DNA of 64,000 bases from the NCBI RefSeq assembly GCF_014654895.1, contig NZ_BNBE01000001.1, positions 1,240,001 to 1,304,000 on the forward strand, written 5' to 3'. Source of the stretch: Streptomyces filamentosus (GTDB lineage: Bacteria; Actinomycetota; Actinomycetes; Streptomycetales; Streptomycetaceae). Positions 4,209-58,924 of this stretch are shown here, in pieces. The notes under the pieces were generated by a model that worked only from the letters and a program-made list of their open reading frames with translations, had not been told where the DNA came from and did no database searches. The position numbers and the translations under genes are program-made. Position 1 is the first letter of the stretch. The number at the start of each line of letters is the position of its first letter.

Positions 4209-5234
4209 TCAGAAGACCGACTCGGCCTCGCGCATCCGGTCCTCGGGGACCGTCTTGAGCCGCGTGACGGCCTCGGCCAGCGGCACCATCTTCACGTCGG
4301 TGCCGCGCAGCGCCGTCATGTTGCCGAAGTCGCCGCGGTGCACGGCCTCCACCGCGTGCCAGCCGAAGCGGGTGGCGAGGACCCGGTCGTACGCGGTCGG
4401 GGTGCCGCCGCGCTGGACGTGGCCGAGGATGACCGGGCGGGCCTCCTTGCCGAGCCGCCGCTCCAGCTCGTAGGCGAGGGCCGTGCCGATGCCCTGGAAG
4501 CGCTCGTGGCCGAACTGGTCGATCTCGCCCTTGCCGTAGTCCATCGTGCCCTCGGCGGGGTGGGCGCCCTCGGCGACGCAGATGACGGCGAACTTCTTGC
4601 CGCGGGCGAAGCGCTCCTCGACCATCTTGACCAGGTCGGCCGGGTCGAAGGGGCGCTCGGGCAGGCAGATGCCGTGGGCGCCGCCGGCCATGCCGGACTC
4701 CAGCGCGATCCAGCCGGCGTGACGGCCCATCACCTCGACGACCATCACCCGCTGGTGGGACTCGGCGGTGGTCTTCAGCCGGTCCATCGCCTCGGTGGCG
4801 ACGCCGACGGCGGTGTCGAAGCCGAAGGTGCGGTCGGTCGACGAGATGTCGTTGTCGATGGTCTTGGGGACGCCGACGACGGGCACGCCCGCGTCCGAGA
4901 GCATCCGGGCGGCCGTCAGGGTGCCCTCGCCACCGATCGGGATGAGGGCGTCGAAGCCGCTCTTCTCCACGAGCTCCTTGGCGTTGTCGCAGGCCGCGGC
5001 GAAGCGGTCGCGCTCCAGCCGGGAGGAGCCGAGGATGGTGCCGCCGCGGGCGAGGATGCCGCTGACGGCGTTGAGGTCGAGGGGGCGGTAGCGCCCGTCG
5101 AGGAGTCCGGCGTAGCCGTCCTCGAAGCCGATGACCTCGTCCCCGTAGTTGGTCACGGCCCGGTGCACGACCGACCGGATCACTGCGTTCAGGCCGGGGC
5201 AGTCGCCGCCTGCGGTGAGAACTCCGATGCGCAT
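4209..5234 (-). CDS. pfkA: 6-phosphofructokinase, ATP type
   Basis: 341 residues from ATG 5234, with AGGAGA upstream. It phosphorylates fructose 6-phosphate to fructose 1,6-bisphosphate in cytoplasmic glycolysis. The nucleotide motif TAGGDCPGLNAVIR (residues 7-20) and PKTIDND (123-129) are present. Position 104 is Gly (GGEGT) and position 124 is Lys. From family knowledge, Gly104 indicates ATP rather than pyrophosphate as donor, and Lys124 is typical of the actinobacterial group. It is divergent from pta-ackA and close to pyk, so a glycolysis/acetate block is clustered here. Confidence 0.95.
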   Translation of the reverse strand: MRIGVLTAGGDCPGLNAVIRSVVHRAVTNYGDEVIGFEDGYAGLLDGRYRPLDLNAVSGILARGGTILGSSRLERDRFAAACDNAKELVEKSGFDALIPIGGEGTLTAARMLSDAGVPVVGVPKTIDNDISSTDRTFGFDTAVGVATEAMDRLKTTAESHQRVMVVEVMGRHAGWIALESGMAGGAHGICLPERPFDPADLVKMVEERFARGKKFAVICVAEGAHPAEGTMDYGKGEIDQFGHERFQGIGTALAYELERRLGKEARPVILGHVQRGGTPTAYDRVLATRFGWHAVEAVHRGDFGNMTALRGTDVKMVPLAEAVTRLKTVPEDRMREAESVF

Positions 5235-55143: not shown

Positions 55144-56991
<1,848 letters not shown>

Positions 56992-57007
56992 CCGGCTTGC
57001 GCTCCAC

Positions 57008-57052
57008 GGAGCCCCGCACCGCTCCCCCGCGAGGGGGGCGGTGCGGGGCTCC
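57008..57052 (+). terminator. chiC terminator
   Basis: Long GC stem (GGAGCCCCGCACCGC and complement, extended by a wobble into CCCCC/GGGGG), starting 17 bp after the chiC stop. Confidence 0.85.
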
Positions 57053-57174
57053 TCGCGTCCCCCGTCGGCAAGGAGATCGCAAAGAACCTCAACTCACGGC
57101 CCCGCGGCGGGCGTTCATCCTATATTCCTCTCTAGGACCGAACCTTTCCCGCCGCCCTGAAAGGGGGTGCAGTG

Positions 57175-57255
57175 ATGAAGCTCCTCTTCGCCATCCGCAA
57201 CAAGGTGTCCGCCCAGAAGAGCCTGAAGGCCAGCTCCTGGTACATCTGGTACTGA
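57175..57255 (+). CDS. Atropopeptide (tryptorubin-type) RiPP precursor peptide
   Basis: 26 residues: a basic leader beginning MKLLFAIRNKVSAQ and ending KSLKAS, then a C-terminal core SWYIWY (residues 21-26). AAGGGGG lies eight bases before ATG 57175; GTG 57172 is an alternative start. The core differs by one residue from AWYIWY, the ribosomal core of tryptorubin A, and a cytochrome P450 gene follows, as in known atropopeptide loci. The P450 in that family cross-links the aromatic side chains to each other and to the backbone. TATATT at 57121-57126 is the likely -10, within an AT-rich patch unusual for this genome. Cleavage site and final product are not known from the sequence. Confidence 0.9.
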   Translation: MKLLFAIRNKVSAQKSLKASSWYIWY

Positions 57256-57262
57256 GCCGCAC

Positions 57263-57292
57263 GGCCGTCCCCGCCGCACGGCGGGGACGGCC
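57263..57292 (+). terminator. Attenuator-like hairpin between precursor and P450 genes
   Basis: GGCCGTCCCCGCCG pairs perfectly with CGGCGGGGACGGCC, 14 bp, with almost no loop, seven bases after the precursor stop. It could cause partial termination so that more precursor than enzyme is made. Confidence 0.6.
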
Positions 57293-57326
57293 CCGCCCTC
57301 CGACGCCCGCCCTCCCGGAGACCCCC

Positions 57327-58376
57327 ATGCGCGCCACGGTGTTCCACCCCCGACTCGCCGCCCTGTTCCGGGACCACCTCGGACAGGACGTCTTCCGGCT
57401 CGAACCCGACACCGTCGGCGTCGCCGGACACGAGGCCGCCGACCGGATCCTCGCCGCCCGCCGCGCCACCGAGGACGAGCGCCCCACCTTCAAACCGCTC
57501 CAGGGCCGCTCGATCCCCAGGGCCGAGGGCGCCGCCGTGATGCGGACCGTCGGCGCCGACGTCCGCGCGGCCCTCAAGGGGGAACGGATCCGGCCCGGGG
57601 ACGTCGACCTGACCGGGGTGTGGCCGCACCGGGGCCACGTCTTCCTCCGGGACCTGGTCCTCGGCAAGGACCCCTACCGGCTGCGGATCCTCATGAGCCG
57701 CAACCTCGAACTGACCCCCAAGCTCACCTGGGCCGTCATCGCCGCGGGCGCCGCCCTCCCCGGCCGGCCCGGCCGCCGCGGCGAACCCCTCACCGGCCTC
57801 GCCCGGCTCACCGCCGACGCCACCGGCTACCAGGACCGCCGCTACGCCATGGGGCTGTACCGGCGCGCGGCCGCCCCCGTCTGCTTCACCGTCTCCGCCC
57901 TCGTCGCCAACGCGCTCTGGCTCGGCTCGCCCTTCGACCCCGCGACGCCGAACCGGCACCTGCTGTACGAGGCCATGCGGCTGCTGCCGCCCTCCTGGAA
58001 CATCCTGCGCAACGCCTCCCCCGAGTACCCCGGCGTCGACCCGCGCATCGGCCCCGCCGACGACGTCCTCCTGCTGCCCCTGCTCACCCACCGGGACCCG
58101 GAGCTCTGGAAGGACCCCGACGCCTTCCGCCCGGAGCGCTGGGAAGACCTCGACCCCGACGACACCCCCGGCTACCTGCCCTTCGGCCACGTCTCCGAGC
58201 GCTGCTGGGGCCGCCACATGGTGATGCCCCTCGCCGAACTGCTCCTGGACCTCGTCCGCGGCGCGGGCCTGGAGGTGGACCCCGGACAGACGAAAGCCGA
58301 GGTGCCCCTCGCGGGACTCCTCGGCGTGTCGGAGATACGGATCCGGCGCGGCCCTCAGGCCACATTGACCCGTTGA
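57327..58376 (+). CDS. Cytochrome P450, presumed atropopeptide cross-linking enzyme
   Basis: 349 residues from ATG 57327, with GGAG upstream; about 50 shorter than typical bacterial P450s. The ExxR pair is E215/R218 (YEAMRLLPPSW), the PERW-type meander is FRPERWED, and the haem Cys is C293 in FGHVSERCWGRH. The expected I-helix region (FTVSALVANALWLG, about 187-200) lacks the common Gly-x-x-Thr, so proton delivery may differ. It lies 71 bp after the precursor gene and its 3' end overlaps the convergent DUF2550 gene by 22 bp. No ferredoxin or reductase gene is adjacent, so redox partners must be supplied from elsewhere. Confidence 0.88.
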   Translation: MRATVFHPRLAALFRDHLGQDVFRLEPDTVGVAGHEAADRILAARRATEDERPTFKPLQGRSIPRAEGAAVMRTVGADVRAALKGERIRPGDVDLTGVWPHRGHVFLRDLVLGKDPYRLRILMSRNLELTPKLTWAVIAAGAALPGRPGRRGEPLTGLARLTADATGYQDRRYAMGLYRRAAAPVCFTVSALVANALWLGSPFDPATPNRHLLYEAMRLLPPSWNILRNASPEYPGVDPRIGPADDVLLLPLLTHRDPELWKDPDAFRPERWEDLDPDDTPGYLPFGHVSERCWGRHMVMPLAELLLDLVRGAGLEVDPGQTKAEVPLAGLLGVSEIRIRRGPQATLTR

Positions 58377-58801
58377 CCCGGCGGCGCCGCCTCCAGCCAG
58401 GCCATGAACCCGGTCCGGGCGTCCTCGCTCATCGCGAGCTCCAGCCGGACCCCGTTGTACATGCAGGGCTGGATCACCGAGTCCGACAGGAGCGCCAGCT
58501 CCTCCTCGCCCTCCGGCATCCGGCGCTCCAGGGCCACGATGGCCGAGCGCTCCAGGAAGCGGCGCGGGCGGGGCGCGTACGAGAAGACCCGGAACCAGGC
58601 GATCTCGTCACCGCTGTACCGGGCGACCCCGTACACCCAGCCCTTGCCGCTGAGGTCCGGCTCCTCCGGCACGTCCCAGCGCAGGGAACAGTCGAAGGTG
58701 CCGCCGGCCCGCTGGATCAGCCTGCGGCGCAAGCCGAAGACGAAGAGCCCGATCACCACCAGTGCGACGACCAGGCCGCACACGAGCAGCGCGAGGAACA
58801 T
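58355..58801 (-). CDS. DUF2550 membrane-anchored protein
   Basis: 148 residues from ATG 58801, chosen because GAGGAGG is nine bases upstream; GTG 58807 is too close. One N-terminal membrane helix (FLALLVCGLVVALVVIGLFV) precedes a soluble domain (TFDCSLRWDVPEEPDLSGKG, then WVYGVARYSGDEIAWFRVFS). The family occurs next to the atp operon in many actinobacteria. The role is unknown. Its C-terminus overlaps the P450 gene end by 22 bp. Confidence 0.85.
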   Translation of the reverse strand: MFLALLVCGLVVALVVIGLFVFGLRRRLIQRAGGTFDCSLRWDVPEEPDLSGKGWVYGVARYSGDEIAWFRVFSYAPRPRRFLERSAIVALERRMPEGEEELALLSDSVIQPCMYNGVRLELAMSEDARTGFMAWLEAAPPGQRVNVA

Positions 58802-58874
58802 CTTCACCGACCTCCTCGCTGCGTCCCGTGACCGGCGCCGCCGGCCGAACCGAATACAACCTGCATCTGCATCG

Positions 58875-58924
58875 CCTCAGCCGCGGCACGGTCCGGAACG
58901 TTCCGGACCGTGCCGCGGCTGAGG
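58875..58924 (-). terminator. ATP synthase operon terminator
   Basis: A 50-bp perfect palindrome (two 25-base arms) centred on GGAACGTTCC, 25 bp beyond the atpC stop and upstream of the DUF2550 gene. Confidence 0.92.

Follow-up and report, generated by a model that had tools for sequence, protein, structure and literature searches.

Atropopeptide loci are defined by a family P450, a KSLK-type motif in the leader that is the proposed anchor of this enzyme, and a tryptophan at core position 2 (PMC11450843), and more than 650 loci of this type are already in print. The lau locus of Streptomyces laurentii encodes LauA, LauB1, and LauB2. LauA has the core WYIWY (PMC12352619); LauB1 installs three modifications on this block and together with LauA gives tryptorubin B, to which LauB2 adds an aryl ether to form laurentirubin B (PMC11450843). 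The trp/try locus of tryptorubin A, a hexapeptide with N-terminal alanine, has two genes (P450 WP_007820080.1), a KSLK-type leader, and no clustered protease in the published description (PMC11450843). The sva locus of S. varsoviensis combines a P450 with a precursor of core SWYQWL, for which two ions matching Ser-less WYQWL were reported, and the structures given are Ser-less varsorubins (PMC11450843). In varsorubin B1, three new bonds go with a loss of four hydrogens, and varsorubin B2a, made by the same P450 with different bridges, has one bond (PMC11450843), while ScaB forms just a single bond in LauA and yields products two hydrogens short from LauA and SvaA (PMC12352619). A similar core and P450 thus do not fix the bond pattern.

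Here, we analyze a locus of S. filamentosus in a stretch of 64,000 nucleotides (contig NZ_BNBE01000001.1, positions 1,240,001 to 1,304,000; hereafter the window; Table 1). It has the WYIWY block and presumably the P450 clade in common with lau, from which it may differ by the Ser ahead of the block and does differ in that LauB2 is missing, the genes lie next to that of a chitinase, and the C-terminus of the P450 is altered. From trp/try, which it resembles in its two genes, its KSLK leader, and the lack of a clustered protease, it differs by Ser in place of the core Ala, in a comparison of gene layout and precursor. The core of the tryptorubin locus is presumably of the same xWYIWY type, and we take its full form to be AWYIWY. 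Ser at core position 1 and the pairing of precursor and P450 are shared with sva, which has QWL in place of IWY.

Table 1. Features of the atropopeptide locus, in positions of the window
Feature	Position	Strand	Basis
Ribosome-binding site AAAGGGGG of precursor gene	57160..57167	+	Sequence
Precursor gene, MKLLFAIRNKVSAQKSLKASSWYIWY	57175..57255	+	NF038372 match, 56.1 bits
KSLK leader motif, residues 15-18	57217..57228	+	Sequence; motif per PMC11450843
Core SWYIWY, residues 21-26, W at core position 2	57235..57252	+	Sequence
Intergenic RNA hairpin, 13-bp perfect stem, 4-nt loop; predicted partial terminator or 3' stabilizer	57263..57292	+	Folding of 57253-57326
Ribosome-binding site GGAGA of P450 gene	57317..57321	+	Sequence
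Atropopeptide P450, 349 aa	57327..58376	+	98% to S. filamentosus P0003, 78% to S. laurentii P0016
Heme-ligand motif FGHVSERCWG, P450 residues 286-295	58182..58211	+	Alignment of family P450s
Insertion scar: last six P450 codons (QATLTR) and stop, antisense of DUF2550 3' end	58355..58376	+	Alignment

An intact atropopeptide locus of tryptorubin type

Judged from its sequence, this is a real and intact tryptorubin-type atropopeptide locus, well formed but ordinary, and its peptide is probably a known compound or close to one. The original prediction had described a 26-residue ORF with a ribosome site and an SWYIWY end, followed 71 bp later by a cytochrome P450 in a two-gene layout with no clustered protease, transporter, or redox partner. 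All of this holds: the precursor matches the NCBI tryptorubin-family model NF038372 from end to end and well above its cut-off (33 bits); the P450 is of the atropopeptide family; and the annotated neighbors between 53043 and 60881 include no protease, transporter, or P450 redox partner. The leader carries exact KSLK and the core has its tryptophan at position 2. A chance ORF is ruled out by the model match and by pattern scans of 392 genomes of the genus, which found SWYIWY-stop in one genome (the window's own) and AWYIWY-stop in 15, with no match to a reversed control pattern among the listed genomes. Membership in the biarylitides was also considered and rejected, as the precursor of those peptides has five residues and its gene 18 bp (PMC13417212). 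No mention of the core string SWYIWY was found in the literature, and the precursor list in the supplement of PMC11450843 may contain it.

Over 97% to 99% of its length, the P450 is 78% identical to that of S. laurentii (P0016) and 71% identical to that of S. jumonjinensis (P0092); we infer that these are LauB1 and JumB, respectively, from the species names (for P0016 also from its full length) and not from accessions. In a tree of 89 P450s, the window's enzyme groups with P0003 of S. filamentosus and with that of S. termitum (locus L001), inside a clade of 15 rows (97/97) that includes P0016. Identity and clade support a class-defining atropopeptide P450, in a tree of family P450s only, which on its own is no test of whether the enzyme falls outside the family. 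Assignment to the family rests on full-length identity and the linked precursors, because the tree has no out-of-family row and no NCBIfam model covers the window P450 (best partial matches far below cut-off); WP_007820080.1 lies outside this comparison. No close sequence relatives were found in the PDB, and the best Pfam and PDB sequence matches cover the C-terminal part only; a fold search recovered the P450 fold. Truncation of the enzyme was ruled out, since its 349 aa fall within the family's 332 to 365 aa (rows listed in the family alignment, with the match start as first residue for the loci) and its model covers the whole fold.

In the I-helix segment of the window P450 (residues 178 to 202), P184, C186, F187, and T188 are invariant (81/81). 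AGx(D/E)T is the I-helix motif of P450s; neither this motif nor an acid–alcohol pair is recognizable in the segment, where the alignment to canonical P450s is ambiguous and disagrees with the residue count from the helix end. The window's own genome has one full-length copy of the P450, and four other places match its C-terminal part only (31% to 35%). Among relatives, a homolog at E 1e-60 was found in 12 of 120 genomes, the window's own counted.

Related loci and their cores

Scanning species-representative genomes with the window P450 gave at least 86 confirmed places, from which 79 distinct loci (L001 to L079) were kept; the scan favors close relatives, because its patterns came from the window P450. 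For counts of precursors, cores, and gaps, the partial locus L075 was left out, and the remaining 78 loci plus the window make 79. A short family precursor lies 71 to 254 bp upstream of the P450 match in all 78 related loci examined, among the matches listed. Exact KSLK is present in 62/79 loci, with variants in the others, and W at core position 2 in 79/79; this regularity is partly built in, since a KSLK-like motif with a W close by was a condition of the search, and therefore only the presence and position of the precursor count as evidence.

The cores are AWYIWY (23 loci), AWYLWY (20), AWYFWY (13), AWYHWY (6), SWYIWY (5), AWYGWI (5), and others (7). The five SWYIWY loci are the window, L001, L051, L071, and L073, and they occupy three separate places of the tree (the window with L001; L073; and a Xanthomonas group with L071, L051 being absent from the tree). 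The Ser core is thus recurrent, in at least three P450 lineages. At L051 (Xanthomonas cucurbitae), the P450 frame stops early (95 codons as translated); this locus was excluded from the P450 alignment, the tree, and the P450 clusters used below and retained in the precursor and hairpin counts. Another locus, L077 of Xanthomonas sp. GPE 39, has two precursors ahead of one P450, with cores SWPHWY and of a longer AWEGYISY type.

The S. termitum JCM 4518 locus (L001) has a precursor identical to that of the window, a P450 of 94% identity, the same kind of P450 tail, and the same chromosomal site; it differs by one base in the 3' arm of the intergenic hairpin (U-A to U-G) and by another loop. The parts of the family papers drawn on here (PMC11450843 and PMC12352619) report no product for it.

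Predicted product

The xWYIWY core and the LauB1-type P450 of the tryptorubin/laurentirubin subtype are both present. The leader would dock on the P450 through KSLK, and with electrons from host redox partners the enzyme would form a C–C bond between the tryptophans, a C–N bond between Trp and Tyr, and a C–N bond between Trp and the backbone, as reported for the scaffold; unclustered host peptidases would then remove the leader and often Ser1 too. We consider it probable that the SWYIWY precursor and this P450 give the known three-bond tryptorubin scaffold on WYIWY and that trimming by host peptidases then yields what is likely tryptorubin B, perhaps the Ser-hexapeptide. The corresponding products would be tryptorubin B (WYIWY less four hydrogens, m/z 826.356) or possibly Ser-tryptorubin A (SWYIWY less four hydrogens, m/z 913.388). 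The expectation of two hydrogens lost per cross-link, as originally formulated, is inexact given the three bonds and four missing hydrogens of varsorubin B1 (PMC11450843).

The locus had been predicted to make a distinct congener in which Ser precedes WYIWY. The Ser-bearing core itself stands, with Ser replacing the Ala of tryptorubin A, and core position 1 can survive maturation, since tryptorubin A is itself a hexapeptide. However, SWYIWY is not particular to this locus (5/79), and Ser1 lies outside the cross-linked block at a trimmable position that bears no cross-link in the structures published in the parts of PMC11450843 and PMC12352619 drawn on here. Furthermore, Ser has arisen at least three times, as expected of a loosely held residue, and the structures from the SWYQWL locus lack it (PMC11450843). 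An untrimmed Ser1-tryptorubin A as a distinct natural product therefore seems rather unlikely, and, with position 1 trimmable and the sva structures Ser-less, maturation may simply end at tryptorubin B. A simpler monocyclic peptide with a single Trp–Trp bond and two hydrogens lost would have precedents in the ScaB products and in varsorubin B2a, but the tree places the window P450 in one clade with that of S. laurentii (97/97), and three modifications on the same WYIWY block are reported for LauB1 (PMC11450843), so that we regard this outcome as improbable. The peptide itself probably adds little, its scaffold and family being known; the new parts here are the intergenic hairpin, the insertion scar, and the absent LauB2-type P450, none of which figured in the original prediction.

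Absence of a second P450 and insertion beside DUF2550

In 16 of the 79 loci L001 to L079, including L003, L004, and L072, the family P450 is followed by a LauB2-type P450 that starts at or near its end (match starts 5016 to 5124). The other 15 copies are 61% to 85% identical to that of L072, which served as query, and all 16 loci have Ala at core position 1. These genes probably correspond to LauB2 in function, by analogy with what PMC11450843 describes for the lau locus and for that of MMG1121 (L072). No LauB2-type gene was found at E 1e-20 in L001 or between 50001 and 64000 of the window, and genome-wide searches at E 1e-100 likewise gave none for L001, L073, and L002; the best match in the window's own genome is 47% identical, and L002 has a remnant comprising the C-terminal quarter only. 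The second P450 of the laurentirubin ether is thus missing from the window between 50001 and 64000. We therefore assign the locus to the tryptorubin and not the laurentirubin type and, LauB2 being absent, expect no formation of the laurentirubin aryl ether.

The window/L001 and L073 lack LauB2, whereas the related L017/L018 and L003/L004/L072 have a LauB2-type gene. Both Streptomyces lineages with a Ser core are without it, which makes two cases only. A link of the Ser core to LauB2 loss was rejected, as two cases are too few and L002 lost LauB2 with an Ala core. At L068 and L070, P450s similar to LauB2 (45% to 58%) lie upstream on the other strand and are outside the count.

The annotated genes between 53043 and 60881 are a two-component pair, a GH18 chitinase gene directly upstream of the locus, and, downstream, a convergent DUF2550 gene followed by ATP synthase genes. 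The scar at the end of the P450 gene makes it overlap with the convergent DUF2550 gene, and L001 has the same scar (about 5029 to 5050) and the same arrangement of chitinase gene, cassette, and DUF2550 gene; the C-termini of sister P450s are different, for example VRRAAA. Among 29 DUF2550 stretches from other genomes (L097 to L125), 25 were examined: none has this P450 beside DUF2550, and 19 have the chitinase gene (absent in 6), sometimes near DUF2550 and sometimes several hundred bases off. The stop codons of the two genes are 57 bp apart in L097, one of the two closest cases, versus 1363 bp in the window. This empty, short gap in relatives and the antisense origin of the P450 tail argue that the cassette was inserted at this site; it entered the lineage between the chitinase gene and the DUF2550-atp genes. 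The right edge of the insertion falls within the last codons of the P450, near the point where the frame of the second P450 starts in sister loci. Scar and empty site make this a clean case of movement of a two-gene RiPP cassette.

The altered C-terminal tail may possibly harm P450 activity, and together with the absence of LauB2 here and its fragment in L002 it could be taken to mean that the locus is silent or decaying. Yet both ORFs are intact, the P450 frame with the altered tail being so in three related sequences (window, P0003, and L001), the precursor is letter-identical in S. termitum despite divergence of the P450 (94%) and of the chitinase (91%), and the one base altered in the hairpin stem still allows pairing; we therefore find a silent or decaying locus very improbable. 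Past the chitinase stop, the window has a long G+C-rich inverted repeat (57010 to 57060), probably the chitinase terminator, that differs in sequence from the empty-site repeat of L097 and L098. Rfam gives two hits in the repeat past the chitinase gene, each scoring less than its gathering threshold.

A conserved hairpin between precursor and P450

The segment between the two genes (57253 to 57326) folds with −41 kcal/mol (z −3.89), and 0/200 shuffles are as good. The folding z averages −2.45 over the 79 gaps (that of the window included), compared to −0.06 for length-matched segments of P450 coding sequence, −0.66 ahead of the precursor gene, and −0.75 past the P450 gene (78 segments). A stem score of at least 10 is reached in 67/79 gaps versus 9/79 upstream and 9/79 coding segments, and by the majority of members in 19 of 22 P450 clusters versus 2 and 3 in the controls (clusters at 80% identity from the 78 loci, with L051 not clustered). 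The 12 gaps below this mark include L057 and L058, which are without a strong stem, and the SWYIWY loci L071 and L073.

Within the window's group, a set of six, 96.1% of cells pair versus 37% to 67% when slid, and 2 of 13 pairs changed on both sides. Shuffled controls reached this pairing percentage in 7/500 and the covariation score in 9/500 cases, and the counts of doubly changed pairs and of pair types in 238/500 and 448/500; covariation in this set is suggestive only, because the latter two measures are no better than shuffles. Two other groups kept double changes at 6/19 and 5/20 predicted pairs, with small covariation energy terms (−1.84 and −0.19 kcal/mol) for structures predicted on the same alignments. 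The shape of the hairpin is kept more than its sequence, which is new relative to the main texts of both family papers: the words "hairpin" and "terminator" are absent from those of PMC11450843 and PMC12352619, and "stem-loop" is absent from that of PMC11450843. No mention of atropopeptide intergenic regions was found in the literature.

Just 5 of the 67 hairpins have at least five T in the ten bases past the stem, and a classical intrinsic terminator is therefore not indicated. Rfam has no match at the hairpin, and scans of 56900 to 58900 gave no sigma-70-type promoter and two terminator sites, both on the minus strand and neither of them the hairpin. We predict that the hairpin, by terminating some transcripts or by protecting the 3' end, makes the precursor mRNA outnumber that of the P450. 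A ribosome site introduced ahead of the sva P450 increased the yield 100-fold (PMC11450843), which suggests that P450 dose limits production, and the hairpin, present before the P450 in 67/79 loci, is a candidate setter of this dose; the possible importance of the locus would then be regulatory. Tentatively, and with somewhat more doubt than confidence, we propose that the hairpin acts as a family-wide, fast-drifting but shape-conserved RNA valve that fixes the ratio of peptide to enzyme and may decide the number of cross-links, with the locus in the window as a compact, movable example that has shed the second P450. In one group, the hairpin arms share GACATCGTTGTCC-type sequence that is operator-like in look.
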